Part shown: positions 14,554 to 64,000 of the stretch, piece after piece
Position numbering within the stretch: the first letter of the stretch is position 1
How the letters are laid out: every line of letters starts with the position of its first letter
Origin: Treponema primitia ZAS-2
GTDB taxonomy: Bacteria; Spirochaetota; Spirochaetia; Treponematales; Breznakiellaceae
Assembly (NCBI RefSeq): GCF_000214375.1
Contig: NC_015578.1
Location: 1,798,001-1,862,000, forward strand
DNA: 64,000 bases
Reading direction: 5' to 3'
Position numbers and translations under genes: made by a program
The notes under the pieces: model-generated
The model's input: only the letters and a program-made list of their open reading frames with translations
The model's database searches: none
What the model was told of the DNA's origin: nothing

Positions 14554-15651
14554 CTATACCCGTTCTTGTTCTTCGATAATTTTTCTGATCCCGGAAACAA
14601 ACGCTTCCCGGGAAAAACGCTGCACATGTTCGGTAAACACCTTCCGGTCAGAGAAGTACTCTTCGCAGGATTCAAACCTGTCCATTGCTTCTATCAGGGA
14701 ATCGGTACTCTGTTCATCAAAAAAAAGCCCTGTCCCGTTTTCCTTTACCGTATCCAGAACTCCCCCCTTGCGGAAGGCAATTACCGGGCACCCTGCGGCG
14801 TTTGCCTCCACAGGAACAATGCCAAAATCTTCGATACCCGGAAAAAGCAGAGCCTTAGCCCGGGAGTAGAGCCCCCTAATTTCTTCATCAGAAACCCTCC
14901 CGGTAAAAGTGACAAGCTTTGACTTTTTATATTTCCCTGTATCCCGGCTCTTTGCACCTGCCCCTGCCACCACGAGCTTTCTCCCTGACCGTACACAAGC
15001 CTCAATGGCAATATCCGCCCGTTTATACCCCGTAAGCTGACCAAAAAAAAGGTAGAAATCCTCCGGTTTCCGTTCCAGGGTAAGATATTTTTCAATAGCC
15101 ACCGGCGGGTAGACCACCGCAGCTTTCCTGTTATAGTAACGTTCAATACGTTTTGCTACATAGGATGAATTGGCAATAAAGCGGTCAACCAGATTGGCAG
15201 AACTTACATCCCAGAGGCGCAGGGCCGGTATAAGTTTGCTCATAAAAAATCTGACCAAAGGGTTCGCCCCACGAAAATATCCGTGGTACATATCCCAGAG
15301 GTACCGCATGGGGCTGTGGCAGTAACAGATATGATAGGCGTCTGGATTCGGAACCACCCCCTTTGCAGGTCCCGATTCACTTGAAATAATCAAATCATAA
15401 TCCTGAAGATCAAATTCCATAAGAGCTTTAGGCATCAGGGGCATATATTTCTGGTACAGTTTCTTTGCAAAGGGCAGTTTATTTATGGAGGAAGTGTACA
15501 CCGGATGGGAATTAATGACGTCCGATACAGTGGCCCGGTCATAGACGTGGGTAAAAATATCCGCCTGAGGAAACATCTCCAGGAGGACTTCCAGTACTTT
15601 CTCGCCTCCGCGCATATTAACAAGCCAGTAGTGTACAATGGCAACTTTCAT
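14554..15651 (-). CDS. GT4 glycosyltransferase (WbaZ-like)
   Basis: 365 residues, GT-B fold. The N-terminal half begins MKVAIVHYWLVNMRGGEK, with the Gly-Gly-Glu acceptor-side loop. CYCHSPMRYLWD is typical of mannosyl/rhamnosyl-type GT4 enzymes of O-antigen loci. The C-terminal half has the donor-binding FPGIEDFGIVPVEANAAGCPVIA, in which E-x7-E (EDFGIVPVE) is the GT4 signature. The nucleotide-sugar donor cannot be read from sequence. It is the last gene of the minus-strand locus, nine bases after the first YidC-sulfatase paralogue. Confidence 0.88.
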   Translation of the reverse strand: MKVAIVHYWLVNMRGGEKVLEVLLEMFPQADIFTHVYDRATVSDVINSHPVYTSSINKLPFAKKLYQKYMPLMPKALMEFDLQDYDLIISSESGPAKGVVPNPDAYHICYCHSPMRYLWDMYHGYFRGANPLVRFFMSKLIPALRLWDVSSANLVDRFIANSSYVAKRIERYYNRKAAVVYPPVAIEKYLTLERKPEDFYLFFGQLTGYKRADIAIEACVRSGRKLVVAGAGAKSRDTGKYKKSKLVTFTGRVSDEEIRGLYSRAKALLFPGIEDFGIVPVEANAAGCPVIAFRKGGVLDTVKENGTGLFFDEQSTDSLIEAMDRFESCEEYFSDRKVFTEHVQRFSREAFVSGIRKIIEEQERV

Positions 15652-15660
15652 GGGTTATCC

Positions 15661-18354
15661 TTAAGGCTGTATCTGAACGGCGGCCCAGTTTTTTGAGTCA
15701 AAAATATTGTCATGAACATAGAGCCATTCATCTTTTTTTATATTAAATTTATATTTTCCATGATTGCCGATATTAAACAGCCCCGACGTGGAAATAAATG
15801 CTCCATCAGCTTTATTACTTTTCAGCGGAACTAAAGTAAACGGATTAACAGGCGAATCTATAATTCCATTGATTGCCAACAATCCAGAATCCGCATTGGT
15901 CATAAAAGAATTATCGATTGTAATATCTTCCCCGGTGGAATCAAAATCCTTGACTAATAATAACGGATTATAAAGTTGAACGCAATCCCCATTCGGCAAT
16001 GTAATATTATTTGGAAATTTACTAAATATACCATATCCATGATCTGAAACAATAATTATCCTGGTATTATTATAAATTTTATTTTCCTGTAAAAAATCAA
16101 ACCATTTACCCAAGGCAATAACAGAAGAGGCATTAACATGATAATCGTCTTCTTCTGCAAATGGACCGGTGCCCAAGGTGCTTATAAATGTTGATGGCTT
16201 ATAATCAGGTAGTTGTAAAAAACTTGGGTAATGGGTAGTATCATTTATCATCATGTTGAAATAATTTTTGCTATCGTTGATTGAAGTAAGTTCAGGTAAA
16301 ATATCTAAAGCAGAATAATTATCAATTAATGAATTACTCATATAAATTGTTTCAGAGTTAGCCAGCCATTTTCCATGATCGTATATAAATATTCTGAAAA
16401 AGAGCGGTGAAATTTTAAAAAACGAAAAACGGATTAAGTTTTTTTTAAGTACAGCAGCGACAGAAATCGTTTCTTTGTTTTCATTCTTGCTTTTCCAATA
16501 ATCAGAATATTTACCAATAATGTTTTCTGCATGAATATCTGGATATTTATCAAAAATACTCAAATCCGGAGTCCAACTATAATTTGCAAAGGAAGGATCG
16601 GTTACGGTAACCTTAAAATTTTTTTCAGAAAATATTTTGGGCAATAAAAGAATCGCTTGATTATGTTTTTCAACCAATGATTCTGTATTTCTTTTCTGCA
16701 TTTCAAGTGGTGTATATTCATACCCGCCAAAAACAGGAGGAGAGCCAAAAAGTGTAATCGAGCCGAAGGAAACACAATTAGGATACCAAGTAAACCCGCT
16801 GAAAGATTTTTTAAGTTCCGGTTTTTCCTGAAAAATATAAGGCAAATAACCGCTTATAGCTCTGTCAAGCATAATTAGCAGTACATTTTTACCTTCCTGT
16901 GAAAATTGGTATACAGGAACAACCTCATTATTTATAGGTACAATAGTTCTATGGTTTGAAAAATCCATATAATCGGAATAAATCCTGAATATATTGATAA
17001 TTCCAAAGCCAATTAGGGAAATAAGAAATACTGCTTGTATTGAATAGATAATCTTTTTATTATTATAAATAAGCAATAATAATATTATTAAGGAAACAAA
17101 TAGTATTACCGCAGCATTAATTATACTGCTTATGAGGCTTATTTCAAATGTCATAAAAAATATCACCATATTATTCATAGCGCCATAATTTCCGGGAAAA
17201 ATAAATGTATTGATTACAGCGATGATGCATGCTATTAATAATAAAGATGTTAATATAATTTTACTCTTTTTGTTGGATAAATAATAAATACATATAGGCC
17301 AAAAAAGGAATATTCCCGCCGATTGTGTCATGGTGGTTAATAAAAAAGGGAGAGGGGAATTGTAGGATTCTAGAAAACAAAATTCCTGAACTGAGGAAAT
17401 AATGAGTAGGCTGGGAATTACCAGCCCGGCAAGAAGAAAAAGAATCGTACATGTTAAAATGAAGGTAATATCGTTATATACGGAAGAGGTGTTTTTTATT
17501 TGAACAGATTCTATGTTTTTTTTAATATATTCCAATATTTTTAATATTGAAGGTATAAAATAAAAAACAGAACATAATAATGCAGAAAATATGCGTTTAT
17601 GCAGAAGGCCCGTATGAAAAAATAGAATATAAATAATTAATGGAACTATACATAAACAGATAAAACGATATATAAGTAATTTTATATTTTTTTTATGGCT
17701 AAGACAGTGTTTTAACAAGGAAAAAATATTGTTCATAGTCCAATAGAGAACCAGCCCTGCGGGAGAATTATATAGTAAAAAAAGAAAAATGAGAGACATG
17801 GCATAAAGCTGAATTCTTTCATTTTTTGCCGATCTTTTGGCATATACCGTGCCAGATATGCAATTTATAATAGTCATGATAATCGGCATTATATTTATTG
17901 CAATTCCGGAAACAGTGATAATATTATCCGGTTTACCCAAATCCTTGATAAATAAAAATGAAACATTCTGTATGTATGCCAGATGAGATATATATGAATA
18001 TGCTGCAATAAAAAAAGGAATCTGTATAAGTAATCCAAAAACATTGCGCATTGAGTATACCGGGTGATAATGGTTTTGCCTGTAATATGTTGACAATACC
18101 ATAAATCTTTCATCACCCTTAAATACCTTTTTTATTTTATCTATCTTGGGTTTCATCCGTTTTTGTATTTCAGATTCGGCATGTTGATGTTTTTCAGCAA
18201 TCAAGTACAAAGGCAGGGTACATATACTTACCGTAAGGCTTACTCCCAGAAGGGATATTCCATGATTATCAAATATTCTATATACAAAAAGATAACATAA
18301 TTCAATAAGCTGAATAATAGGGAAAATAATAATGGTATACAGAATGTTTAACAT
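15661..18354 (-). CDS. YidC-like/LtaS-like fusion protein, paralogue A
   Basis: 897 residues from the ATG at 18352-18354, chosen because all paralogues start MLxxxYxxII there; an ATG at 18390 lies inside the upstream gene. Residues 1-215 are a YidC/Oxa1 fold: LLIQIPFFIAAYSY, the FIKDLG loop and YNSPAGLVLYWTMNN match the insertase core, but the groove Arg is Ser43. About residues 225-460 hold further membrane helices. Residues 485-897 form an alkaline-phosphatase-superfamily domain: D497 in IMLD, the probable nucleophile T534 before GSPPVFGGYEYTP, H708, H739 and D771-H772 in VSDHG. Expected role: transfer of a phospho-group onto a surface glycan. This copy lacks the His found before the Thr in the other three. 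Confidence 0.8.
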   Translation of the reverse strand: MLNILYTIIIFPIIQLIELCYLFVYRIFDNHGISLLGVSLTVSICTLPLYLIAEKHQHAESEIQKRMKPKIDKIKKVFKGDERFMVLSTYYRQNHYHPVYSMRNVFGLLIQIPFFIAAYSYISHLAYIQNVSFLFIKDLGKPDNIITVSGIAINIMPIIMTIINCISGTVYAKRSAKNERIQLYAMSLIFLFLLYNSPAGLVLYWTMNNIFSLLKHCLSHKKNIKLLIYRFICLCIVPLIIYILFFHTGLLHKRIFSALLCSVFYFIPSILKILEYIKKNIESVQIKNTSSVYNDITFILTCTILFLLAGLVIPSLLIISSVQEFCFLESYNSPLPFLLTTMTQSAGIFLFWPICIYYLSNKKSKIILTSLLLIACIIAVINTFIFPGNYGAMNNMVIFFMTFEISLISSIINAAVILFVSLIILLLLIYNNKKIIYSIQAVFLISLIGFGIINIFRIYSDYMDFSNHRTIVPINNEVVPVYQFSQEGKNVLLIMLDRAISGYLPYIFQEKPELKKSFSGFTWYPNCVSFGSITLFGSPPVFGGYEYTPLEMQKRNTESLVEKHNQAILLLPKIFSEKNFKVTVTDPSFANYSWTPDLSIFDKYPDIHAENIIGKYSDYWKSKNENKETISVAAVLKKNLIRFSFFKISPLFFRIFIYDHGKWLANSETIYMSNSLIDNYSALDILPELTSINDSKNYFNMMINDTTHYPSFLQLPDYKPSTFISTLGTGPFAEEDDYHVNASSVIALGKWFDFLQENKIYNNTRIIIVSDHGYGIFSKFPNNITLPNGDCVQLYNPLLLVKDFDSTGEDITIDNSFMTNADSGLLAINGIIDSPVNPFTLVPLKSNKADGAFISTSGLFNIGNHGKYKFNIKKDEWLYVHDNIFDSKNWAAVQIQP

Positions 18355-18365
18355 ATTTTCATCAT

Positions 18366-21089
18366 CTATGGAAGTGTAAGAGCTTCCCAATTTTCGGGAA
18401 CAAAGATATTATCCTTAATGTGCATCCATTGGTTATTGGCAATTTTAAGTTTATTTTTATAATGATTACGGCTACTCAGAGCCGGGATGGTTGTAATAAC
18501 TACGCCATCCTCTTTATTGCTTTTTAAAGGAAGGCCTGTATAAATATTAACTGGATTATCAAAAAGATTATTCATGAGAAGTAAAGGAACGTCAGCGTTA
18601 GTCATAAAAGTATTATCAATAGTAAGTTCCTGTTCCTCGGAATTCTGGTGAAAATCCTTATAAAGCAGCAGGGCATTATAGCTTTCAATATTTCTTCCAT
18701 CAGGAAGTATAAAACTCCCGGGTAAATTGACGGCAAGATTCGATCCGTGATCCGAAACTATTATTATTCTAGTATTATCATAAACATCATTATCTTTTAA
18801 ATATTTAAACCATTTATCAAGAAGTATAAACGAGGCAATATTAGCATGATATTTTTCATCCTCTGCAAAAGGGCCTGAGCCCCGGTTGATAACATTATTG
18901 GCCGGAATATATTCCGGAGGCTGCAAAAATGCAGGATCATGTGGTAATTGGCAAAGAATCTCATTTAATGTTGGAGTGTCATTATCATTAATATTGGTAA
19001 GATATGATAAATAATCCAAAAAAGCATAATTATTAATTGTATCTATATTTAGGGCACCCCTTACTTTTGAAGTACCATCAAATTGGTTGGTAGTAAGCCA
19101 TTCGCCGTCATCATAAATAAACAATCGGAAGAAAAGAGGAGATTCTTTAAAAAATGAAAACCGAATTAGGTTATTATTTAATAATTTCGTAAATGATAGT
19201 ATAGTAACTTTTGGGTGTTTCTGAAGCCATTGGTTAGTATATTTGCTAATTATATTTTCAGCGTTAATTTTAGGGTAATTGGCAAATACACTAAGATTAG
19301 ACTGAAGATAGTTGTCAAAAGGCGGATCATTTAAAGAAACCTGATATCCTGATTCCGAAAAAACACGGGGCAGCAACAGATAAGCTTCCTTTTGTTTTTC
19401 TACCAGAGTAATTGAATCCTTGTTATTTATTTCAATCGGTGTATATTCATAGCCACCGTATAATGGCGGTGCTCCAACCATGGTATGGTCAGCATAGGAA
19501 ACACAATTTGGATACCATGTAAAATCTTTAAGAAATTGATAGAGTTCCGGTTTTTCGTCTAAAATATATGGAATATAACCGGAAACTGCCTTGTCAAGCA
19601 TTATCAAAAGAACATTGTTACTATTTCTAGATAAGGAAAAGAGGGGCTGTATCATATTTGAGTCATTGTCTGCAAAATCCCGTTCCTTCAGAATGCTTGA
19701 AAAATCATTATTAATTCTAATAAAACTAAACAGGCTTAGCCCAAAAAGGGCCATTAAAACAACGATTTGTGCAGAAAGGAGAATAAATTTCTTCTTTGAT
19801 TTAAATAAATAAATAACTATAATTGGTACAGCAATCAAAAGCAAGCCATTTATTATTGATAATTTATAATCAGAGTAAAAAGGTTTTGGATCTGAAAACA
19901 ACATAGATACGGTAATAAAACCAAAATTTTCCTGAATAAGAAATGCATTTATCAAAGAACAAAAAGACAGACAAGTGAAAATAATTATAAACGGAGCGTT
20001 CGATTTTTTCCCAAAAAAGAAATAAAGGATGAGAGGCCATAATAAAAATAATCCGGCAGCTTGAATAGTTGTTTGTAAAATAAATGGAAACGGTGTTGTA
20101 TAATTTTCAATAAAAGAAAAATCCTGTACGGAAGAAGCAATAAGCATTCCGGGTATGATAATACCAGTTAGGAAAAATAAAATAATAAGGGGCATTAGGA
20201 TATAAACAATTGGATAATCATTGACATATTTTTCTTTATGTCTTATTTTTAGAATGTATTTGTCAAAAAGAGGCAAAAATAATATAAATGATAAAGCGAT
20301 GCAAGCTAATCCCTTCTTTAAAATATTGCTGCTAACCTTAATAAATATAATGTATATGTCAATAAATATCGTAAAAATTATTAAAATGGCATATATAATT
20401 TTTCTTTTATTTTTTAATTTTTGAAAAATATTTTTTATTAATGAAAATATATTATTCAATGTCCAGTAAAGTACCAGAGCGGATGGTGAATTATACAATA
20501 AAACGAGAAAAATAAGCGCCATTACATAAAGCTGTATTTTTTCATTGTTTGAAAACCCTTTTGTATAAATTGCACCGGCAATACAATTTATAAGAGTCAT
20601 AATAATGGGAAGCACATTTATGTATATAAATGTTGAGTTTACCATAAATTGTAACAGCCTGTCTGGTTTTCCTAAGTCTTTAATTAATAAGAATGAAATA
20701 CCCTGGATGGCTGATAAATTGGAAAGATACGAATAGGCAGCGATAAAAAAAGGTATCTGGATCAGTAGGCTAAAGGTAGTCCGTAGTGCGAATACCGGAT
20801 GGTAATTATTCTGCCGATAATAAGTTGAAAGAATTAGATACTGCTCATCTCCCTTATATACTGCCTTAATTCTGTCTATTTTTGGTTTAAGTTGTTTTTG
20901 AATGGTCCGTTCAGCCTGCTGGTGTTTTTCTGCAATAAAATACAGCGGTAGAGTACATATGCTTACAGCAAGGCTTACCCCCAAAATAGCTGTAACGTGA
21001 TTATCAAAAACACGATAAGCAAATAGATAAACTAATTCAATAATTTGTATCAGTGGATATATTATAAGAGTATATAAAATAGTAAGCAT
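18366..21089 (-). CDS. YidC-like/LtaS-like fusion protein, paralogue B
   Basis: 907 residues with the same three-part layout. The insertase-like core occupies residues 1-220, with LLIQIPFFIAAYSYL and SPSALVLYWTLNN; Ser43 stands where YidC has the groove arginine. A middle membrane block follows (about 230-460), including the shared IASSVQDFSFIENY loop. The catalytic domain has D499 (IMLDKA), T536 in the HTMVGAPP motif, PHDPAFLQPPEY, YHANIAS and IIIVSDHG. The final segment QWMHIKDNIF matches the other copies. By family knowledge such domains (LtaS, EptA) move phosphoglycerol or phosphoethanolamine from a lipid to an acceptor outside the inner membrane; the donor here is unknown. Confidence 0.8.
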   Translation of the reverse strand: MLTILYTLIIYPLIQIIELVYLFAYRVFDNHVTAILGVSLAVSICTLPLYFIAEKHQQAERTIQKQLKPKIDRIKAVYKGDEQYLILSTYYRQNNYHPVFALRTTFSLLIQIPFFIAAYSYLSNLSAIQGISFLLIKDLGKPDRLLQFMVNSTFIYINVLPIIMTLINCIAGAIYTKGFSNNEKIQLYVMALIFLVLLYNSPSALVLYWTLNNIFSLIKNIFQKLKNKRKIIYAILIIFTIFIDIYIIFIKVSSNILKKGLACIALSFILFLPLFDKYILKIRHKEKYVNDYPIVYILMPLIILFFLTGIIIPGMLIASSVQDFSFIENYTTPFPFILQTTIQAAGLFLLWPLILYFFFGKKSNAPFIIIFTCLSFCSLINAFLIQENFGFITVSMLFSDPKPFYSDYKLSIINGLLLIAVPIIVIYLFKSKKKFILLSAQIVVLMALFGLSLFSFIRINNDFSSILKERDFADNDSNMIQPLFSLSRNSNNVLLIMLDKAVSGYIPYILDEKPELYQFLKDFTWYPNCVSYADHTMVGAPPLYGGYEYTPIEINNKDSITLVEKQKEAYLLLPRVFSESGYQVSLNDPPFDNYLQSNLSVFANYPKINAENIISKYTNQWLQKHPKVTILSFTKLLNNNLIRFSFFKESPLFFRLFIYDDGEWLTTNQFDGTSKVRGALNIDTINNYAFLDYLSYLTNINDNDTPTLNEILCQLPHDPAFLQPPEYIPANNVINRGSGPFAEDEKYHANIASFILLDKWFKYLKDNDVYDNTRIIIVSDHGSNLAVNLPGSFILPDGRNIESYNALLLYKDFHQNSEEQELTIDNTFMTNADVPLLLMNNLFDNPVNIYTGLPLKSNKEDGVVITTIPALSSRNHYKNKLKIANNQWMHIKDNIFVPENWEALTLP

Positions 21090-21104
21090 TATTTCTCCGG
21101 AATA

Positions 21105-23828
21105 TTATGGGACTGTAACAGCTTTCCAGTTTTTTGGATCAAATATATTATCCTGGACAAAAAGCCATTGATTATCCCTGATTTTATATTTATATTTTGA
21201 GTGATCCCTGCTGCTCAGGGAGTCTATTGTTGTAATGGTTACTCCGTTTTCTTTATTAGTTTTTAAAGGAATATTGGTAAAAGGATTTACCGGATTTGTT
21301 ATTATATCTTTTGTCGCCAAGAGCGGGACATCTGCATTTATCATAAAGGAGTTATCAACTTGTAATGCCGTTCCCGTTCCTTTTGAATTAAAGTCTTTCA
21401 CCATCAATAATGCCGTATATGATTCAAGGCATTTTCCATCCGGAAGAACGATATTATTTTCAAAATCATCAAAAATATTGCCCCCATGATCAGAAACTAT
21501 AATGATCCTTGTATTATCATAAACTCCATTTTCTTTCAGATAAGTAAACCATTTTTCTAATAAAATAAAACTGGCAATATTACCATGATAAGTAACAGAA
21601 TTGTTAAAATGACCATTGCCCTTATTTGTAACTCTTTGAGCAAGCTTATAGTCAGGGGCTTGTAAAAATGACGGATCATGAGTCAGCCCATTATAGATTA
21701 TATTAAGGTTGTTTTCCTTTTTATTATTCAGTATTGTAAGTTCCTTTAAAAAATTAAGGCAGGCATAATAATCTATAGTAAAATCCGTTAAACTTCCGTT
21801 AAGCTTACTAAATTTATCCAATGATGTTGTAAGCCATTCTCCATCATCGTAAACAAAATATCTAAATATAAATGGGGTTATTTTAAAAAAAGAAAACCGT
21901 ATGAGATTATTTTGTAAAACATTTGATATGGATAATCCGGTTACACCGGGATTCATCTGAAGTAGTGGTGTTGAGTATTTACCAATTATATTTTCAGCAT
22001 GAACTTGAGGGAAATCCCTGAAAATGCTTAAATTTGATACTTGATTATTGTCAAAAGGAGGATCGGTTACTACTGTGGAGTAACCTAAATTTGCAAAAAT
22101 AATAGGAAGTAATAAAAAGGCCTCCTTATGTTTTTCAATAATTGATACAGTGTCACGTTTGTTTATTTCCAGAGGCGCATATTCATAACCTCCGTATATG
22201 GGAGGAGCTCCTGCCAAGGTATGCCCGGCGAAGGAAATGCAGTTTGGATACCATGTGAAATCTGAAAATATTCCGAGCAAATTCGGATTTTCATCAAAAA
22301 TATAGGGTATATATCCTGGTATAGCTTTATCAAGCATAATAAGAACCACATTTTTTCCGTTTTGGGAAAAAGAATATATTGGCTGGAATAATTCGAAGTC
22401 GCTATTTTGAGTGCTTTTTAGCTTTTGAAACTGGGAAAAATTATTTGATATGGTAATAATATTAAAAATGCTGAATATACTAAGCGCTAAAAGTGTTATA
22501 TAATTAAATGATTTAATGACAGCCTTTTTTCTTGTGAATAGCATGGCAAAGGTTAATATAAGAATTAAAATAAGGATACCTATATTCCCCAAAAGAATTT
22601 TATAATTTGATGTAAATGGTTGAGGCTCGGAAAAAATAAGGGTAATTGTAAGAAATCCGAAATTATCCGGAATCAGGAAGGTATTAACTAAGGATGAGGC
22701 AAGGAAAAGTGTAATAAAAAAAGATAAAAAAATTCGGACTTTCCTGGAAAAAAGGAAATAAAGGCATATTGGCCAGAAAAGAAATATACCCGCAGCTTGA
22801 ACTGTTGTATAAAATAAAAAAGGGAATGGGGTCGTACGGGATTCAATAAATGAAAATTCACCTACGGCAGATGCAATAAGTGAACCCGGTATAACTACCC
22901 CGGAAAGTAAAAAAAGAGAGATCGCGGAAATAAAGAAAGTTTGGCTCCAGGGGTTTTCTATTTCCGCAGAAATAAAAAAAGGTTTTATTTTTTGTTTGAA
23001 ATAATTATATAACTTTGTCAAATAGGGAATAAAGAAAACCATAGAAAACACAACGCAAAGCATGAGCCGTTTTATAATATATCCTGAATGTAAAATTAAT
23101 AAATACGCATCAAGCAAGGAAACAAGAAAGCATAAACCTATATACACAACTTTTTTTTGATTTTCAGTCCTTTGTAAGATGTTTTTAACTAAAGAAAATA
23201 AATTGTTCATTGTCCAGTACAGAACCAGTCCTGCAGGTGAGTTATAGAGAAGCAAAAGAAACACAAAGGCCATACTATAAAGTTGGACTTTATCTTTTAT
23301 CTCAAGCCCCTTCGTGTATATAGCACCTGCAATACAGTTTATTGCGGTCATAAGTATTGGAAGAAGATTCAATCTGAAGTTTCCGATTAAAAGAAACTCG
23401 TCGGGGGAACTTAAATCCTTAATAAAGGCAAGTGGAACACCCTTGAGGCTCGAAAGTTGGGATAAATACGTATAGGCAGCTATAAAAAAGGGGATTTGAA
23501 TTAGTAGGCCAAAGGTGTTACGCAATGCGTATACAGGGTGGTAATGATTTTGCCGATAGTAAGTCGAAAGCAACATATACTGTTCATCACCCTTAAAAAC
23601 AGCCTTAATCATGTTAATTTTAGGTTTAAGCCGTTTTTGTATATCCCGTTCAGCCTGCTGATGTTTTTCTGCAATAAAATACAAAGGCATGGTACTTACA
23701 CTGACTGCGGCGCTTACCCCTAAAAGGGCAATGCCATGGTTTTCAAAAACACGATAAACAAATAAATATACCAGTTCAATAAGTTGAACCAGAGGAAAAA
23801 TAATGATGTTATAGAAAAAAGATATCAC
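21105..23828 (-). CDS. YidC-like/LtaS-like fusion protein, paralogue C
   Basis: 907 residues. The start is a GTG whose first bases overlap the preceding glycosyltransferase stop (GTGA), and it aligns with the starts of the other paralogues (MISFFYNIIIFPL). The YidC core covers residues 1-215, with Ser43 in place of the arginine. Middle helices run to about 460. The phosphotransferase domain has D500 (IMLDKA), T537 in HTLAGAPP, THDPSFLQAPDY, YHGNIAS and IIIVSDHG. It is the closest relative of paralogue B by eye. The translational coupling to the GT4 gene upstream suggests a shared pathway step. Confidence 0.8.
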   Translation of the reverse strand: MISFFYNIIIFPLVQLIELVYLFVYRVFENHGIALLGVSAAVSVSTMPLYFIAEKHQQAERDIQKRLKPKINMIKAVFKGDEQYMLLSTYYRQNHYHPVYALRNTFGLLIQIPFFIAAYTYLSQLSSLKGVPLAFIKDLSSPDEFLLIGNFRLNLLPILMTAINCIAGAIYTKGLEIKDKVQLYSMAFVFLLLLYNSPAGLVLYWTMNNLFSLVKNILQRTENQKKVVYIGLCFLVSLLDAYLLILHSGYIIKRLMLCVVFSMVFFIPYLTKLYNYFKQKIKPFFISAEIENPWSQTFFISAISLFLLSGVVIPGSLIASAVGEFSFIESRTTPFPFLFYTTVQAAGIFLFWPICLYFLFSRKVRIFLSFFITLFLASSLVNTFLIPDNFGFLTITLIFSEPQPFTSNYKILLGNIGILILILILTFAMLFTRKKAVIKSFNYITLLALSIFSIFNIITISNNFSQFQKLKSTQNSDFELFQPIYSFSQNGKNVVLIMLDKAIPGYIPYIFDENPNLLGIFSDFTWYPNCISFAGHTLAGAPPIYGGYEYAPLEINKRDTVSIIEKHKEAFLLLPIIFANLGYSTVVTDPPFDNNQVSNLSIFRDFPQVHAENIIGKYSTPLLQMNPGVTGLSISNVLQNNLIRFSFFKITPFIFRYFVYDDGEWLTTSLDKFSKLNGSLTDFTIDYYACLNFLKELTILNNKKENNLNIIYNGLTHDPSFLQAPDYKLAQRVTNKGNGHFNNSVTYHGNIASFILLEKWFTYLKENGVYDNTRIIIVSDHGGNIFDDFENNIVLPDGKCLESYTALLMVKDFNSKGTGTALQVDNSFMINADVPLLATKDIITNPVNPFTNIPLKTNKENGVTITTIDSLSSRDHSKYKYKIRDNQWLFVQDNIFDPKNWKAVTVP

Positions 23829-24892
23829 TTAAGGATCTCCTGCAAAACAATTGCTGCAGTTTTTTTAAAAGAATATTTATCGTATAAATCAGGAGAAAGA
23901 TTTAAATATTCCACCTGTCTGTTATACAAAAGAAACATAAGTTTATCCTTTAAGTTCTCGCTGTCACCGGCACAAAAATATTCTACTGGAAATTCAGAAT
24001 ATATTTCCTTAAAAACAGGGATATCAGAAAGTAGTACCTTTGTACCGGATATTATTGCTTCAATAGGAGGGCTCCCAAAACCCTCATAGAGAGATGGCTG
24101 TACAAGTAATGAAGCTTCGGATAGTAGTTGTGCAAGTTTTTCATTGTCAATAAATCCGGTAAATTCAATTATGGAAGAATCGACATTATCTATTATTTTT
24201 ATTATCTGTGAATCCGCAGATCTGAAATTATCCTTACTTCCAACAATAACAAGTTTATGTTTTAACCCCGCTTCTTTAGCCTTAAGAAATGCGTCAATAA
24301 GGCACCATAACCCTTTATGCCTTTTTATGTTTCCGATAAACAGTATAAAGTCTTTTTTATTAGTCTTCCGGTGGTCAGCATCAAATAAAAAGGATTGCAC
24401 ACCGCTGTAAGTAACAGTAATTGGCGTTTTAGTACCCAGATAGAATTCTATCCGGGATTTGGAAAATTCAGATACTGTAAATATTTTTCGGGAATGTTTG
24501 GCTGCCCTTCTAAAAAACCACATGCGTACCGCCAAACCTGTTTTTGAAACAAGCTCGGGCATATCGGCAAAAACAATATCATGTATTGTTGTAAATATCG
24601 GAATAGTTATACCTGAGGGAATATTAAAAAAGGGGGAATAATAAATAGTAGTTTTATTGATCTCATGCCTTATTTTTGCTGGAAAAAATAAATACTCTGT
24701 AACAGAAAATGGTTTGGCATCGCAATTTAAAATTGCAACATTACTATAACCTTTGGTAACTTGCAGCAATCTTTTTTGATTGCCAATAAGCAAGAAATCA
24801 TTTTTGGAATCAAGTAGAAATGGAATGCAACCGCGTAGATAAGTACCAATCCCGCTGGAATCAACCATCCGGCAGTCGATAGTTATCTTCAT
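23825..24892 (-). CDS. GT4 glycosyltransferase
   Basis: 355 residues, GT-B fold. SSGIGTYLRGCIPFLL at the N terminus gives the Gly-rich acceptor loop; TVSEFSKSRI and FIGNIKRHKG are typical of the interdomain and donor regions; LVQPSLYEGFGSPPIEAI carries the GT4 E-x7-E (EGFGSPPIE). Both ends overlap neighbouring genes by four bases (ATGA at 24889, GTGA at 23825), placing it firmly in the same operon as the TagB/F-like gene and the YidC-sulfatase paralogues. The sugar donor is not predictable. Confidence 0.9.
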   Translation of the reverse strand: MKITIDCRMVDSSGIGTYLRGCIPFLLDSKNDFLLIGNQKRLLQVTKGYSNVAILNCDAKPFSVTEYLFFPAKIRHEINKTTIYYSPFFNIPSGITIPIFTTIHDIVFADMPELVSKTGLAVRMWFFRRAAKHSRKIFTVSEFSKSRIEFYLGTKTPITVTYSGVQSFLFDADHRKTNKKDFILFIGNIKRHKGLWCLIDAFLKAKEAGLKHKLVIVGSKDNFRSADSQIIKIIDNVDSSIIEFTGFIDNEKLAQLLSEASLLVQPSLYEGFGSPPIEAIISGTKVLLSDIPVFKEIYSEFPVEYFCAGDSENLKDKLMFLLYNRQVEYLNLSPDLYDKYSFKKTAAIVLQEILK

Positions 24893-26115
24893 TTTACCGT
24901 TTTTGTCATAAAATCGGCAATACGCTTACCAGCCTCTCCCCGATACTGCCAGGCGGTATTTTTCGCATCCAGCCGCGCATTTTGCAGTAGGGTACTTTTT
25001 GATGCATTTTTTATCACTTCCGCCATGGTTTTAAATTGTTCCTCTTTCAGTTCAATGCCGATTTCCCGAAGTATCCTGAACTGCCATAACTCATCGGGAA
25101 CATCATCGGCATCATAGGGGCGCAGATCCATATCCTGGCTTACATAAATTACCGGTTTATCACAGAGGAACATAAAATCGAAGATGATACCTGAAAAATC
25201 AGAAATCATGATATCCGCCCGGGAAAGGGAGTAAATATTCTCCCGTTCATAGTCCCACTGTACATTCGGATTTGTGCTGTACCGTTTAGCCAGGGTTTCA
25301 AGCATATCAGCTTCTGATTTTTTAGACTGGGGATGGGGCCGTACAATAATCCGCCATCCTGATTCAGCCAGGGGATCAAGGAGTCTTTCCCCATAATGCT
25401 TCAACAGGCCGGAAGCGCCCCAGGAAGGGGAAACCAATACCGTAAAGGGATGGGTATCTTCAATAGGTAACTGCTTAATCTTTTCAGCGTATACATCCAG
25501 GTAAGTACAGCCAACGGTAATGAGCTGTTTTTCAGGCAGACTGCGCTGTTTTTCCAGAATGCGGATATCCTTAGCCTGATAATCCCCGGTTAATAACACT
25601 GAATCAAAATAATCCAGGCCGAACAGGCGGTAGGTAGTTGCGTCGCTTGGCATGTGGAGTACATGGGAATAATGATTTACCGATTTGGAACGTTTAAGCT
25701 GATAAACATTCAGGCTCGGGGTGGTCATAAGGACAAAATTTGCGGAAATAATGTTTAATCTTGCGTATGCCTTATTGCCTTCACCGATGAACTCAGATTT
25801 TATAAAATGGTACGTATTTTCAAAAACAGGATCATCTTCTGAAGATGTTAGGTATAACAACTCCTGCTGCCTGGTTTCAAATTCTTCAACTACTGGTTTG
25901 AAAACATTCCAGTATTGCTTTCCCTCGGAATAAATCACATAGGGATAAAGGGTGTTTGAAACAGCGGCACGGCCCCCAGAAAAGAAGACCTTAACTTTGA
26001 TAATAACCGCCCTTAAAAGGAAATACAGAGTTGCCGCTGCTCCAATTAATATTGAAAAGAGCATACTTCCCGTTCCGGGATCAATATACAGGGGGTTGAA
26101 ATGCAAGTGTATCAT
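24889..26115 (-). CDS. CDP-glycerol glycerophosphotransferase family (TagB/TagF-like)
   Basis: 408 residues. An N-terminal membrane segment is introduced by the motif YIDPGTGSM (about residues 10-45). The rest matches the poly(glycerol phosphate) transferase family: GDYQAKDI, SPSWGASGLLKHYGE, IIVRPHPQSKK with the catalytic-type His, and MISDFSGIIFDFMFLCDKPVIYV, where TagF binds the CDP-alcohol. In Gram-positive bacteria these enzymes add glycerol- or ribitol-phosphate to wall teichoic acid on the cytoplasmic face. It overlaps both neighbours by four bases and sits between two YidC-sulfatase genes. No CDP-glycerol or CDP-ribitol synthase is in the window, so the donor must come from elsewhere. 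Confidence 0.87.
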   Translation of the reverse strand: MIHLHFNPLYIDPGTGSMLFSILIGAAATLYFLLRAVIIKVKVFFSGGRAAVSNTLYPYVIYSEGKQYWNVFKPVVEEFETRQQELLYLTSSEDDPVFENTYHFIKSEFIGEGNKAYARLNIISANFVLMTTPSLNVYQLKRSKSVNHYSHVLHMPSDATTYRLFGLDYFDSVLLTGDYQAKDIRILEKQRSLPEKQLITVGCTYLDVYAEKIKQLPIEDTHPFTVLVSPSWGASGLLKHYGERLLDPLAESGWRIIVRPHPQSKKSEADMLETLAKRYSTNPNVQWDYERENIYSLSRADIMISDFSGIIFDFMFLCDKPVIYVSQDMDLRPYDADDVPDELWQFRILREIGIELKEEQFKTMAEVIKNASKSTLLQNARLDAKNTAWQYRGEAGKRIADFMTKTVK

Positions 26116-28802
26116 TTTTCTACAAGCCTCCAGTTTTCTTCATTAAAAATGTTGTCCTGAACATGTATCCATTGGTTTTTCCGTATCTTATAGGTAGTTT
26201 TATTGTGCTGGTAGGCCATGGATATATGGTTAGTAGTAATAAGGGCGCCTTCTTTTTTTGGATTCGTATTTATAGGTTTCGCGGTAAAGGGATTTGCAGG
26301 ATCCTTTATAATCCCTGCGCTCGCCAGAGTGGGAACATCGGCTTGGGTCATAAAATCCATATTGATTTCTAATTCACCGTGTTCATTAAAGTCTTTCATC
26401 AGCAAAACCGGATTATATTTTCCCCGGCCTTCTCCGGGAATAGGAATTTCTTTTAATTCTGGATAGGGGTTTACTCCGGCGCCGTGATCCGATACAATAA
26501 TAATACGGGTATTGTCATAAACACCGTTTTTCTTTAATTCATCCAGCCATTCCCCAAATCGCAAATAAAAAGCATTGTTTATATGATAATACTCATTATT
26601 CGAAAATACGCCTCCACCGCGATCCGTTACGATCTGTTGGGGAATATAATCAGGGTATTGCAGATATAACAGTTCATGGGTTACTTCATTTGAAATAAAC
26701 AATGCAGAAGGTTTCTCCGCATCATAGCTGGTGAGTTCTGGTAAAAAATCAAGCACCGCATAGGAATTTATAAAATCAGTGATGGAATAACCGATGTCAT
26801 CAGTACTCCAGTACCAACCATCATCATAAATAAGAAAACGTATCATCGGTGGAACAATTTTTAAAAATGAAAACCAGAGCACATTTCTTTTGATATGGTT
26901 ACCGGTAATATCCCCATTTCCATAGTTGTTCCGTAAATACCATACACTGTTATACCGCCCCTTGGTATTGAAGGCGGTGATATGATCATATTTGTCATAT
27001 ATTCTGGTATCTGGAACCCATGCATAGTTAGCCCAGGAAGGGTCTGTCACTGTAACTTCGTATCCTTCATCAGCAAAAAGTCTGGGAAGCACCAACAGCG
27101 CCTCATTGTGTTTTTCTACCATGGGAACCGTATCATGGCGGTTCATTTCACTTGGAGTATATTCATATCCCCCCCATATAGGCGGAACTCCCATTAGGGT
27201 ATGCAGAGCAAAGGATACTGTATTCGGATAGAGGGTAAATCCGTCAAACTGTTCTTTTAATTGGGGATGCTCTTCGAATATCGGTTTTACATATCCGTTA
27301 ATAGCAGCATCTGCAAAGAAAATAATTATATTCGGCTCATCTTCTGAAAGGTGAAAAATTGGACTGACCGAATGAACAGCACCCTGAGTGTCATCCCGCC
27401 GGCTGAGTAATTCTTTGTATCCTTTGTTTATGCGAAGCATATTATACCCTGAAAAAAAGAGGGATGACAATAAAAGGATTACCTCAATTGAAGAAATTAT
27501 TTTTATTTTATTGACCCTGAATATCAAAAAAATAAAGCATATAAGAACCAGGAAACAAAAAATATTTAAGAAAACAGAAAGCACAGGAACATCCAGAACT
27601 CCGGTGGTATTAAAAAGGAAAGTATTGGTTATTACCCCGTAATCACCCTGAAATATAACGGTATTAACAAGAGAGAAAATTGCTGTAACGGAGAACAGGG
27701 CCGTCAGTATAGTTTTAATTTGAGCGTTAAACAGGAAATAAATACAGAGTGGCCAGAAAGTAAAAAATCCAATGGTCTGTGAAAATGAGCTAAAAATAAA
27801 AGGGAAGGGTGATTTGTATTGATCTATAAAACTAAATTCTTCCGGAGATGAGGAAATTACTGTAGAAGGAATAAACAAGCCGGTAAGAATCGTGAGGATT
27901 AAACAGCTTAACAGAAAAAGTATATTTCTTTGACTAGTATTGGCAAAGAGTGGGAGAAGAAATTTTCTGTAAATATAAGTAATAGCTCTGATATACAGAG
28001 GAATGAAAAAAAACAGGGTTAAAGCACCTGATAATATCAATCTTTTTCTTAAAGTTCCGTTATTAATAAAAAGAAGATAGGCAATAAAAGCAATAACCCC
28101 AAGGCTGATAATAACATACAGTACCCTTAAAGGGTTTTTTAACCTGTAAAAAATATTTTTAATCAGGGAAAAAACATTATTCATGGTCCAGTACAAAACA
28201 AGGCCGGATGGAGAGTTATACAATAAAACAACAAAAACAGCGGCCATCCCATACACTTGAATCTTATCTCTGGCAGGTAAACCCCGGGTATATATAGCTC
28301 CGGCAATACAGTTAATAAAGGTCATGGCTATGGGTAGGATATTTACCCTGAAATTGCCGATATTGAATATGGAATCCGGGACGCCTAGATCGCGGATAAA
28401 GAAAAATGATTCTCCCCTTAAGGACTCCAGGGTAGACAGATAGGTATAGGCCGCCAGGAAAAAGGGAATTTGAATAAGAATCCCAAAGGAGCTCCGCATA
28501 GCATAAATCGGATGGTAATGGTTCTGTCTGTAATAGGTTGACAGGATCATATATTGTTCATCACCCTTAAACACGGCTTTTATTTTATCAATCCCGGGTT
28601 TAAGCTTTTTAGTTATATCCCGCTCTGTTTTTTGCCATTTTTCTGCTATCACATAAAGTGGAAGGCATAAAATTGTTACTGCAAAACTTACTCCAATAAC
28701 TGAAAAAGCAGCGCTGTCAAAAACCTTGTATACAAGCACATATACTGTTTCAATAATTTGAACTATAGGAAAAATAATAATAGCATAAATGACATTTAAC
28801 AT
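26112..28802 (-). CDS. YidC-like/LtaS-like fusion protein, paralogue D
   Basis: 896 residues, the most diverged copy. The YidC core (1-215) keeps LIQIPFFLAAYTYL and SPSGLVLYWTMNN, with Thr43 at the arginine position. Middle helices follow, with the loop SSSPEEFSFIDQYKSP. In the catalytic domain the first metal Asp lies in FFADAA (D498) rather than IMLD; T535 sits in HTLMGVPP, followed by IWGGYEYTP; THELLYLQYPDY, YYHINNA and IIIVSDHG complete the site. Its start overlaps the HddC-GmhB gene by seven bases and its stop overlaps the CDP-glycerol transferase start (ATGA). It shares with the others the C-terminal QWIHVQDNIF segment. Confidence 0.8.
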   Translation of the reverse strand: MLNVIYAIIIFPIVQIIETVYVLVYKVFDSAAFSVIGVSFAVTILCLPLYVIAEKWQKTERDITKKLKPGIDKIKAVFKGDEQYMILSTYYRQNHYHPIYAMRSSFGILIQIPFFLAAYTYLSTLESLRGESFFFIRDLGVPDSIFNIGNFRVNILPIAMTFINCIAGAIYTRGLPARDKIQVYGMAAVFVVLLYNSPSGLVLYWTMNNVFSLIKNIFYRLKNPLRVLYVIISLGVIAFIAYLLFINNGTLRKRLILSGALTLFFFIPLYIRAITYIYRKFLLPLFANTSQRNILFLLSCLILTILTGLFIPSTVISSSPEEFSFIDQYKSPFPFIFSSFSQTIGFFTFWPLCIYFLFNAQIKTILTALFSVTAIFSLVNTVIFQGDYGVITNTFLFNTTGVLDVPVLSVFLNIFCFLVLICFIFLIFRVNKIKIISSIEVILLLSSLFFSGYNMLRINKGYKELLSRRDDTQGAVHSVSPIFHLSEDEPNIIIFFADAAINGYVKPIFEEHPQLKEQFDGFTLYPNTVSFALHTLMGVPPIWGGYEYTPSEMNRHDTVPMVEKHNEALLVLPRLFADEGYEVTVTDPSWANYAWVPDTRIYDKYDHITAFNTKGRYNSVWYLRNNYGNGDITGNHIKRNVLWFSFLKIVPPMIRFLIYDDGWYWSTDDIGYSITDFINSYAVLDFLPELTSYDAEKPSALFISNEVTHELLYLQYPDYIPQQIVTDRGGGVFSNNEYYHINNAFYLRFGEWLDELKKNGVYDNTRIIIVSDHGAGVNPYPELKEIPIPGEGRGKYNPVLLMKDFNEHGELEINMDFMTQADVPTLASAGIIKDPANPFTAKPINTNPKKEGALITTNHISMAYQHNKTTYKIRKNQWIHVQDNIFNEENWRLVEK

Positions 28803-30103
28803 TTAGTATCCTCTAAAATCATAACATGCTGTATAAAATCATTCAGGTTTGAAAAGATTAAAACTCTTCTGCCGTCAATATTTTCTTCCTTATTATCAGC
28901 GTTAGGCTTCAAAAGTATTGGTTTACATCCTGCGGCAATCCCAGCAAGCACATCTTTTATATCGTCCCCAACCATATATGACTTTGATAAATCAATATTA
29001 TATTTTAGAGCAGCCTGAAACAACATTCCGGGTTTTGGTTTTCTGCATTCGCAATTAATCTTATACTCAGGGCGTTCACCGGGGAAACCTTTGTCGGGGT
29101 GGTGGGGACAAAAAAATATGTCATCAAGATATGCCCCTTTCCTGCCTAGTTCTGTTTCAAGCTTGTGATGAATATTTTCCAGGTCAATCAGTGATGCTTC
29201 CCCCCTTGCTATTACCGGTTGATTGGTAATCACAATAGACAGGTATCCGGAACTATTTATTCTTCGTATAGCCTCCGGCGTGCCATCAATCAGTTCAAGT
29301 TGTTCCGGTTTTGTCACAAATCCATTCAAAGTATTGATAGTCCCATCTCGATCGAGAAACACCGCCTCCTGAGGGCAGGATAAATTACGCTTCCTGACTA
29401 TACCCCGTTCAATATCGGTGGATACCTGCGCATAACGCTCCGGGGTGCCCATGTCTTTAATATATTCAGGGGTATTGTAAGCATAAATGGCGCCACAGGA
29501 TATGAGAGGTTTTAAAATATCGCGGTCAAGGTCTACTTTTTCTTTATGCGGGCCTGCCTTAGCAAGCAGGTTTTTTGACAAAATGTGAATACCCGCATTA
29601 ACCTGGTTTTTATAATACAAACGGCTATCTTCTTTATTGAGCCATTGAATAACACGGTGTTCCTGATCAGTTATAAGCAGTGCGCTATCGAAAGGATGGT
29701 TGTTTGGATGAACAACAAGAGTTGCCAGAGCTTTTTGTGTAGAATGAAACGCTATAAAACGTGAAAAATCAATATCAAAAATGATATCGCCGTTTATCAG
29801 AATAAAATCATCGGAAAGATTGTCTATTATTTTATACAACGCTCCGGCAGTACCCAGGGGTTCTGTTTCTGTGTAATAGGAAATGGTGCAGTCCCATTTA
29901 CTTCCATCGGTAAAATAATCTTTGATTTTTTCACCAAGATGCCCAACAACCATGATAATATCAGTAAAATTATTTCTTGCCAGGCAATCGATCTGATGTT
30001 CTAAAATTGGTTTCCCGGCTATAGGAACCATTGGCTTTGGAATATCCGATGCTATTGCGGCAATACGAGTCCCTTTGCCTCCGGCCATGATTACAACTTT
30101 CAT
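28796..30103 (-). CDS. Bifunctional heptose-1-P guanylyltransferase / heptose bisphosphatase
   Basis: 435 residues, two enzymes in one chain. Residues 1-230 are a sugar-nucleotide transferase (MAGGKGTRIAAI, KPMVPIAGKPIL, LINGDIIFDID), matching HddC, which makes GDP-D-glycero-alpha-D-manno-heptose. Residues 245-425 are a HAD phosphatase of the GmhB type: FLDRDGTIN, VITNQPVIARGE, a zinc-binding FFCPHHPDKGF...CECRKP loop, and MVGDDIKD. GmhB removes the 7-phosphate before HddC acts, so the fusion joins consecutive steps in reverse order. It overlaps GmhA by four bases and paralogue D by seven. Confidence 0.9.
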   Translation of the reverse strand: MKVVIMAGGKGTRIAAIASDIPKPMVPIAGKPILEHQIDCLARNNFTDIIMVVGHLGEKIKDYFTDGSKWDCTISYYTETEPLGTAGALYKIIDNLSDDFILINGDIIFDIDFSRFIAFHSTQKALATLVVHPNNHPFDSALLITDQEHRVIQWLNKEDSRLYYKNQVNAGIHILSKNLLAKAGPHKEKVDLDRDILKPLISCGAIYAYNTPEYIKDMGTPERYAQVSTDIERGIVRKRNLSCPQEAVFLDRDGTINTLNGFVTKPEQLELIDGTPEAIRRINSSGYLSIVITNQPVIARGEASLIDLENIHHKLETELGRKGAYLDDIFFCPHHPDKGFPGERPEYKINCECRKPKPGMLFQAALKYNIDLSKSYMVGDDIKDVLAGIAAGCKPILLKPNADNKEENIDGRRVLIFSNLNDFIQHVMILEDTKC

Positions 30104-30732
30104 GGAAAAAAATGCTCCTCAAGCATAAGGCACAGTGCATGATAAACGGGAAGATGTAATTCCTGTACGCGGTAAGTTTCTGTTTCCGGGACAATCACCG
30201 CAACATCGGCAATTTTCGCAATTTCACCACCGGTCCCGCCTGTTAGGGCTGCAGCCTTGAGGCCCCTTGCCTTAGCAGTAATCATGGCATATAGAACATT
30301 TTTTGCATTGCCTGAAGTTGATATCCCTAAAAATAAATCCCCAGGCTGGCCATAGCCATATACTTGCTGAGCATAAATGATGCTGCCGTCAATGTCATTG
30401 ATACAGGCGGTCGTCAAAGCAGTATGGGCGGATAGCGCTATGGCAGGCAAGCCCTGTTGAATATTCCGCGCAATATAGTTTGAAGTATCTATATCCGTGA
30501 GTTTTTGTAATTTTGCGGTAAAATCAGCAGAGAGTGGGCGCTTTTTTAGGAAACCTTTCATTAGTTCCCCAACAATATGATCTGAGTCCGCAGCGCTCCC
30601 CCCATTACCGGCAATCAGCACCTTCCCTCCAGCTGCGAATGTATCTGCCATAAGCCTGTATGTTGCGGCAATATTATCCTGAATACCGCTTAATACCGGA
30701 TATCGTTCAATTAATTGTTGTAAATAGTCCAT
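30100..30732 (-). CDS. gmhA: Sedoheptulose-7-phosphate isomerase
   Basis: 210 residues, SIS domain. It converts sedoheptulose-7-phosphate to D-glycero-D-manno-heptose-7-phosphate, the first step of heptose activation. AGNGGSAADSDHIVGEL (near residue 42) is the substrate-binding loop, ISTSGNAKNVLYA the second phosphate loop and ALTGGTGGEIAKIADV the third. The C-terminal QELHLPVYHALCLMLEE holds the Glu-x-x-His metal-site helix. It overlaps HddA by 22 bases and HddC-GmhB by four, forming a complete heptose cassette. Confidence 0.94.
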   Translation of the reverse strand: MDYLQQLIERYPVLSGIQDNIAATYRLMADTFAAGGKVLIAGNGGSAADSDHIVGELMKGFLKKRPLSADFTAKLQKLTDIDTSNYIARNIQQGLPAIALSAHTALTTACINDIDGSIIYAQQVYGYGQPGDLFLGISTSGNAKNVLYAMITAKARGLKAAALTGGTGGEIAKIADVAVIVPETETYRVQELHLPVYHALCLMLEEHFFP

Positions 30733-31745
30733 GCCTGGGTTCCAATTTCAGTAAAACTTGCAGGGAAAACAGTCCCTTCTTTTTGCTTTAAAGCTTTTAT
30801 AAGGTTAATACGGTTACAGGGGTTGCAATATAGCATCATAAAACCACCTCCTCCGGCGCCCGAAATTTTCGCTGATTCTGCTCCATTTTCCATGGCGTAC
30901 TGAAACAATCCATCAAGAAAACTATTCGAAATAGAATCCGCTAAATTTTTCTTAGCCAGCCAACCCTGTAGCAAACATTTCGAAAAGCCCCCAAAATCCC
31001 CTTTCAAAAGGAATTCCTTCATAAGAACAGCCTGCTTTTTCATTTCATGCATACCTTCAATACTTTTCATGTTCTTGTTTTGGGTGTTTTCTATTTGCCG
31101 TTTTATGATATTAGCGCTTTCTCTGGAAACACCGGTATAATATAATACCAGTGAGGCTTCAAGTTCATTACGGATCCAGCGTTTCAGCCTCAGGGGATTT
31201 ACGATAACTTTTTCATCCCGGTAAAATTCCATAAAATTAAAGCCCCCAAAGGTAGCCGCATATTGATCCTGTTTTCCCCCGGCCATATGTAAATCTTCCC
31301 GTTCAATTTTATATGCAAGAGAGGCAATATCGTATTCACCTAAAGGCAAATTCAACCATTCAGTGTATGCTTTAAGAATAGCAACAACCAATGTAGAAGA
31401 TGACCCCAATCCGGAGCCTGCAGGAGCATCGGAATAGGTGGTCATTACAAAAGAAAGAGGCTTACCATTATTATAATCCGCTATAATTCGGTTATAAATA
31501 CCGCTATGAAGAGGAAGCGCCTGGGATATATCCAGCACACTTGATGCCTCATACTCTTGCTGCTTTTCAATATCCGTTGCATTAAATATAACTTTATCAT
31601 TATTAGTCGGTTCCAAAATACAATAGGAATACATGTCAATTGTAGCGTTCAGCACATACCCATCGTATATATTATAATAAGTATCAATGTCCGTGCCGCC
31701 CCCGGCAAATCCTAGTCGAAGAGGAGCTTTTGATCGTATCACCAT
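30711..31745 (-). CDS. hddA: D-glycero-D-manno-heptose 7-phosphate kinase
   Basis: 344 residues, GHMP kinase fold. APLRLGFAGGGTDIDTYY at the N terminus and the ATP loop APAGSGLGSSST (near residue 109) are typical of HddA, as is GGKQDQYAATFGGFNF (near 156). The C-terminal KISGAGGGGFMM is GHMP motif 3. It phosphorylates heptose-7-phosphate at C1 in alpha configuration, so the product leads to GDP-heptose, not the ADP-heptose of classical LPS cores. It is followed directly by gmhA and the HddC-GmhB fusion. Confidence 0.92.
   Translation of the reverse strand: MVIRSKAPLRLGFAGGGTDIDTYYNIYDGYVLNATIDMYSYCILEPTNNDKVIFNATDIEKQQEYEASSVLDISQALPLHSGIYNRIIADYNNGKPLSFVMTTYSDAPAGSGLGSSSTLVVAILKAYTEWLNLPLGEYDIASLAYKIEREDLHMAGGKQDQYAATFGGFNFMEFYRDEKVIVNPLRLKRWIRNELEASLVLYYTGVSRESANIIKRQIENTQNKNMKSIEGMHEMKKQAVLMKEFLLKGDFGGFSKCLLQGWLAKKNLADSISNSFLDGLFQYAMENGAESAKISGAGGGGFMMLYCNPCNRINLIKALKQKEGTVFPASFTEIGTQAWTIYNN

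Positions 31746-63031: not shown

Positions 63032-64000
<969 letters not shown>

Follow-up and report, generated by a model that had tools for sequence, protein, structure and literature searches.

What does a YidC/Oxa1 fold do when it is joined to a phosphotransferase and placed among glycan genes? The question is raised by a window of the Treponema primitia ZAS-2 genome (a single contig of 4,059,867 bases), the window being the whole stretch of 64,000 nucleotides analysed here (NC_015578.1, positions 1,798,001 to 1,862,000). An initial annotation had proposed that it carries four genes of about 900 codons, each fusing a YidC core to a phosphotransferase domain of the alkaline-phosphatase (AP) superfamily, and four intact, stop-free open frames encoding proteins of 896–909 residues are indeed present, all on the minus strand (Table 1). 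The copies are 44–51% identical to the first of them; the residue numbering of fusion gene 1 (the 26112 copy) is used throughout. Alignment indicates that the true start of fusion gene 4 is probably Met13. The interval first singled out (15661–28802) does contain the four fusion genes, and it also contains a GT4 glycosyltransferase gene and the gene of a TagF-like transferase, here called partner C, the latter of which had been missed.

Table 1. Features of the window discussed in the text (positions are those of the window)
Feature	Positions	Strand	Description
GT4 glycosyltransferase	14554..15651	-	Downstream of fusion genes
Fusion gene 4	15661..18390	-	909 aa counted from TTG; likelier start ~18354
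Fusion gene 3	18366..21089	-	907 aa
Fusion gene 2	21105..23828	-	907 aa
GT4 glycosyltransferase	23825..24892	-	Between fusion gene 2 and partner C
Partner C	24889..26115	-	408 aa; N-terminal YIDPGTGS, membrane helix, TagF-like GT-B transferase
Fusion gene 1	26112..28802	-	896 aa; YidC-like domain, seven membrane helices, AP-type transferase domain
Fusion gene 1, extracytoplasmic AP-superfamily domain	26115..27362	-	Residues 481-896; Asn491, Asp498, Thr535, His709, Asp772 and His773 common to all members
Fusion gene 1, connecting helices	27363..28148	-	Residues 219-480; two linker helices followed by five in the LtaS/EptA/PbgA layout (basis: model secondary structure and PbgA match)
Fusion gene 1, YidC/Oxa1-fold domain	28149..28802	-	Residues 1-218; Thr43 at E. 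coli groove Arg366 site, Ser39 at Thr362 site
GDP-D-glycero-D-manno-heptose supply set (nucleotidyltransferase/HAD, GmhA-like, kinase-like)	28796..31745	-	Pfam for 28796-30103
PntC-type fusion, C-terminal (2-aminoethylphosphonate transaminase) part	63035..63982	-	Cut by the window's right edge; last window frame

Architecture and spread of the fusion family

Several lines of evidence bear out the reading of the N-terminal segment as a YidC/Oxa1 core. Pfam 60KD_IMP matches residues ~33–230 of all four fusion proteins (E 6e-24 to 3e-21), and the scores of 76.7–85.3 bits all lie above the curated cut-off of 35. The N-terminal part retrieves YidC crystal structures with phmmer at E 7e-9, and in the AlphaFold2 model of the 26112 copy (mean pLDDT 89.6, pTM 0.81) it matches Bacillus halodurans YidC (3wo7_A) in Foldseek, with a TM-score of 0.71 on the target, an rmsd of 3.3 and 24% identity. 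Two of the four proteins also exceed the cut-off of TIGR03592, the NCBIfam YidC model; automatic annotation would thus name some fusion proteins "membrane protein insertase YidC", hiding the family.

The E. coli Arg366 site, which we take to be the groove arginine of YidC, is occupied by Ser, Thr or Asn in 117/117 aligned family members (one gap), whereas all 12 of the housekeeping YidCs compared, which belong to the same phylum, have Lys or Arg there; the fusion family also has a conserved Ser one turn before it. The insertase groove has thus lost its positive charge family-wide, as judged from the alignment. The role of that groove is covered in a review (PMC7618853). The host also encodes a separate housekeeping YidC of 613 residues, and such a protein was found in every genome tested. 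A tree built from 42 sequences sets the fusion family, together with two stand-alone relatives, apart from the 12 housekeeping YidCs with a support of 100/100. On the groove site and the tree we reject the reading of the YidC-like part as a bona fide second YidC.

The C-terminal domain had been read as an LtaS/EptA-type AP domain, and structure and conserved residues agree with this even though the standard profile hardly sees it. Pfam Sulfatase matches the fusion C-termini weakly (E 9e-6 to 0.01), its cut-off of 25 bits being reached only by the 26112 copy (25.7 bits) while the other three fall below. The corresponding part of the 26112 model matches PbgA, LtaP, EptA, MCR-1 and LtaS in Foldseek. 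An AP-superfamily fold extends over residues 488–896 of the model (Z about 19–21, Foldseek and VIA-align matches), and the match to PbgA spans residues 286–896, from the membrane helices into the AP domain. The six residues listed for this domain in Table 1 are unchanged in all aligned members and, by their order and spacing, appear to correspond to the catalytic Thr and the metal and substrate residues of LtaS. The middle membrane block of the initial annotation likewise stands: in the 26112 model, the YidC core runs to residue 218 and is followed by two linker helices, five LtaS/EptA-like helices and the AP domain. Because these seven helices come after the C-terminus of the YidC part, which is cytoplasmic in the established topology, the AP domain would lie outside. 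AP enzymes of the LtaS/EptA/PbgA type work on the outer side of the membrane.

A survey for both domains in one chain, a step suggested by the initial annotation, returned full-length members in spirochaetes and Clostridia. Scanning named genomes by pattern turned up 77 loci; most come from Treponema and other spirochaetes, but Brachyspira, Ruminococcaceae, Lachnospiraceae and other Clostridia are represented too, and Treponema and Breznakiella hold the nearest named relatives of the window's fusion genes. When 296 genomes of the phylum were searched with a profile, full-length members emerged in many spirochaete lineages. Together with the window's four, 114 full-length members from spirochaetes and Clostridia make up an alignment of 118, all of which keep the YidC-like part (the search seeds lay within that part). 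The collection scan likewise used motifs inside the YidC-like part, and AP relatives lacking it may exist. Since the same single-frame fusion recurs in 114 further sequences, a frameshift or assembly join of two genes, already deemed unlikely, is ruled out. Mean pairwise identity is highest in the YidC-like part (58%), compared with 38% in the AP domain and 21–28% in the connecting helices. In the third copy of Treponema putidum (L052:14658-17362) an in-frame TAA cuts the gene into a YidC-like part of 221 aa and an AP part of 664 aa, which is either decay or another natural split. The fusion genes that L006 carries on a short contig, assigned to Dysgonomonadaceae (Bacteroidota) by binning, reflect either mis-binning or transfer, as the tree places one of them among spirochaete sequences.

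A TagF-like partner and a predicted supply of activated donors

The gene that lies between the fusion genes in the window encodes partner C, which matches Pfam Glyphos_transf at 36.2 bits against a cut-off of 22.1. A profile built on it retrieves the TagF-like capsule polymerase Cps3D (E 3.8e-7), and the top Foldseek match of its model (pLDDT 87.1) is TagF in complex with CDP-glycerol (3l7k, E 1.8e-11). Its N-terminal YIDPGTGS is invariant in 27 sequences, precedes a single helix and is predicted to be disordered when alone (pLDDT 42–57). Partner C is predicted to be anchored by one N-out helix, with its TagF-like enzyme part in the cytoplasm.

Partner C is a near-obligate companion of the fusion family. 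It was found in 20/20 fusion-bearing and 0/22 fusion-less genomes in a test whose 42 genomes were picked by fusion status. In an even sample of 40 genomes of the family, not picked in that way, the presence of C and of the fusion agree in 35, the five exceptions being incomplete genomes; among the high-quality genomes of this sample agreement is 17/17, with C in 11/11 fusion-bearing and 0/6 fusion-less genomes. It is also present in 15 of the 17 fusion-bearing genomes reached via the named loci. A relative of C directly adjoins a fusion gene on the same strand in 49/91 loci, many of which are short contigs. There is one C per genome for up to four fusions, and in the window genome one serves all four.

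The second set of companions is predicted to make activated donors. Immediately outside the window, next to the PntC-type frame that its right edge truncates, lie Ppd and Ppm, and the host genome encodes Ppm, Ppd, and 2-aminoethylphosphonate (AEP) transaminase with PntC (L138:2533-6785); the Ppm match scores 398 bits against a cut-off of 320. Such a Ppm, Ppd and PntC-AEP-transaminase set makes CMP-2-aminoethylphosphonate (PMC6697681). Of the fusion-bearing genomes 12/20 have Ppm, compared with 2/22 of those without a fusion (p 8e-4), and so do 12 of 17 further fusion-bearing genomes. In one locus (L148), Ppm, Ppd, PntC, C and three fusion genes form a single operon in that order, and L075, L079, L142 and L146 are similar. 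In many Treponema loci, the gene directly after partner C instead encodes a fusion of a cytidylyltransferase-type and a CobD-like domain, a combination that would suit the synthesis of a CDP-aminoalcohol. One genome (G046) has one fusion and C pair beside the CobD-like fusion and another beside Ppm. The CobD-like fusion also occurs in three fusion-less genomes, and one or other donor pathway is present in 16/20 fusion-bearing genomes, against 5/22 of the fusion-less ones. The other 4/20 fusion-bearing genomes (G177, G081, G239 and G149) lack both pathways, so not every family member can be using AEP as its substrate.

A recurrent neighbor of 609 aa was first read as PntC, but NCBIfam places its aminotransferase half nearest CobD and the PntC query missed the protein. 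Among spirochaetes, with one genome carrying both, AEP and CobD-type donor genes seemed to exclude each other, but the two types occur together in several Clostridia. CDP-glycerol is disfavored as the donor for C: the neighbors make CMP-AEP or include the CobD-like/cytidylyltransferase fusion, and no dedicated CDP-glycerol gene was seen among the recurrent neighbors of fusion loci.

In two distant spirochaetes (G092 and G183) the same components occur in split form. The YidC-like protein stands alone (238–286 aa) and is followed by C and then by a separate membrane AP protein in place of the fused AP domain (L100:9611-11434 and L101:8063-9847), beside a complete Ppm-Ppd-PntC-AEP-transaminase set. 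These AP proteins resemble the fused AP domain only distantly, so the YidC-like protein and C form the constant unit; orthology of the standalone and fused AP is unsupported. Neither the near-obligate C, nor the split version, nor the phosphonate operon at the window's right edge had been picked up by the initial annotation.

The surroundings are those of glycan synthesis. Fusion loci are rich in glycosyltransferases, and the heptose supply set is a recurrent upstream neighbor of the fusion genes; we take two of its members to be GmhA-like and kinase-like from sequence similarity. Elsewhere in the window, a frame at 10960-12660, on the strand opposite to the glycan genes, matches the capsule assembly protein Wzi, an intact-looking Mutator-family transposase lies within the glycan locus (35071-36282), and the glycan run includes a protein of 284 residues without Pfam match (48284-49135). 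Another protein without Pfam match, of 572 residues (L036:15970-17685), lies near fusion genes in nine loci, and FtsX-like permeases recur downstream of the fusion and C in several gut and rumen spirochaetes (L038:12679-14133, L017:16047-17333).

A three-part model weighed against its rivals

On balance, and with modest confidence, we favor a three-part system for surface-glycan tailoring with aminoalkyl phospho(no)nyl groups, in which the YidC fold would present or flip a lipid-bound donor to the AP enzyme. The donor genes would make a CMP- or CDP-activated aminoalkyl phospho(no)nyl group in the cytoplasm, Ppm, Ppd and PntC-transaminase yielding CMP-2-aminoethylphosphonate and the cytidylyltransferase/CobD-like fusion probably a CDP-aminoalcohol; in T. 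primitia the group may well be AEP. Partner C would move the activated group, on the cytoplasmic side, onto a membrane lipid or lipid-linked acceptor. Because donor synthesis is cytoplasmic and the AP domain works on the outside, some component has to traverse the membrane. The YidC fold is a natural candidate carrier, in vitro lipid scrambling having been observed for E. coli YidC and other Oxa1 relatives (PMC10491306). The YidC-like domain, without its groove charge, would carry or present the charged lipid at the outer face, where the fused LtaS/EptA-like AP domain would take the group on Thr535 and pass it to the glycan. A single C for four fusions is expected under this model, in which C would produce one donor for all of them and the fusions would differ in the acceptor that they serve; fusion paralogues sharing one C would accordingly modify different acceptor sites. 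The C. difficile flagellin model, itself a proposal, offers a precedent for a TagF-like enzyme that works with a CDP-activated aminoacid phosphate: a cytidylyltransferase and TagF-like pair is suggested there to transfer phosphothreonine (PMC10714395). The initial annotation had suggested that the YidC fold was recruited to present a membrane substrate. The loss of the groove charge, partner C and the genes for CMP-AEP and CDP-aminoalkyl supply all fit and strengthen this idea, whereas we still infer the presentation or translocation step itself. As a point against the three-part model, C could act directly on a cytoplasmic glycan, with the AP domain having a separate job.

In the main rival reading, the YidC-like domain would serve C as a dedicated insertase or receptor: it would insert or permanently hold C's short YIDPGTGS tail and single helix and so bring C near the outside AP enzyme, with no passage of lipid. 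A short N-out tail with one helix is the type of client that YidC handles without Sec (PMC7618853), and a tail that is invariant yet predicted to be disordered alone is what is expected of a binding motif. The YidC-like protein and C also remain together in the split loci, where the AP protein differs, and the similarity of C tracks that of the YidC-like part (0.81) above that of the AP domain (0.70), with partial correlations of 0.63 and 0.29, values that carry no significance test and come from pairs sharing ancestry; this correlated divergence fits both the receptor reading and the three-part model. We nevertheless regard a receptor for C as unlikely, though worth keeping in view: the housekeeping groove charge is gone in every member, one C serves up to four fusions in cells that also have a general YidC, and mere insertion of C needs no copy of the domain in each fusion paralogue.

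Two further explanations were weighed. The fusion could be an ordinary membrane phosphotransferase that, like LtaS and EptA, draws its group from a common phospholipid, the YidC-like part being a structural or folding add-on and the linkage to C and donor genes a consequence of shared glycan loci. The AP residues and five-helix layout of LtaS/EptA/PbgA, as well as the abundance of glycosyltransferases around the fusions, are as this account predicts; we find it improbable given the strict genome-level pairing with C, the position of donor genes as immediate neighbors and the retention of the YidC-like part, the best conserved region, in 118/118 aligned members (from seeds in that part). That the fusions are working membrane-protein insertases that happen to carry an enzyme is very hard to believe: the Pfam and NCBIfam YidC models do match, two of the four proteins exceeding the TIGR03592 cut-off, but the groove Lys/Arg is lost in all members, every genome tested has a separate housekeeping YidC, and the genes lie in glycan loci with a near-obligate TagF-like partner.

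Relation to known systems

Most bacterial phosphonate genes serve surface tailoring, and the steps after AEP were described in 2019 as unknown (PMC6697681). The fusion, C and donor genes are named candidates for these steps and form a gene set that can be tested in culture. Our literature search, from whose coverage many subscription journals fall out, found nothing relevant on YidC-sulfatase fusions or on YidC together with glycerophosphotransferase or polysaccharide, which supports the initial view of an undescribed system as far as the searched literature goes. It is quite possible, although we advance it tentatively, that an Oxa1/YidC fold has given up protein insertion and instead moves a phospho(no)nyl donor, bound to lipid, across the membrane or presents it, and that, with the TagF-like and AP-type enzymes, it forms an undescribed pathway for the last steps of surface phosphonate or aminoalkyl-phosphate tailoring in spirochaetes and Clostridia. 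If true, this would give the YidC/Oxa1 fold a role outside protein insertion, in line with the lipid-scrambling insertases (PMC10491306).

Each component resembles a known system and departs from it. The fusion proteins share the fold, the cytoplasmic hairpin and the IQIPFF and SPxGLVLYW regions with B. halodurans YidC2 and E. coli YidC, but have Ser, Thr or Asn for the groove Lys/Arg and roughly four additional residues past the groove helix, are joined to a transferase, lie in glycan loci and are tied to C. With LtaS/LtaP, EptA/MCR-1 and PbgA (YejM) they have in common five helices and an outside AP domain, with the positions of the Thr nucleophile and metal ligands; they differ in the extra YidC-like domain, the two linker helices, partner C, a donor that probably comes from CMP/CDP precursors, and the fact that the standard Sulfatase profile barely matches them. 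Partner C shares the GT-B fold, Pfam Glyphos_transf and the RPHP and SDxSG motifs with TagF and TagF-like capsule polymerases such as Cps3D, but is a short, single-domain enzyme with an invariant YIDPGTGS helix anchor that co-occurs with the YidC-AP fusion. The C. difficile flagellin type A glycan genes CD0242 and CD0244 likewise combine a cytidylyltransferase and a TagF-like enzyme, which are suggested to transfer a CDP-activated aminoacid phosphate (PMC10714395), and AEP is also reported on this glycan (PMC8861647); that glycan is protein-linked, and the parts of these sources considered describe no YidC-AP protein there. Finally, Ppm, Ppd and PntC-transaminase of the Pnt/Lic pathways (Treponema denticola PntC; LicC/LicD) are present and linked here too, but where LicD-like transferases were noted in the published Pnt clusters, the fusion loci have a TagF-like enzyme and a YidC-AP protein.
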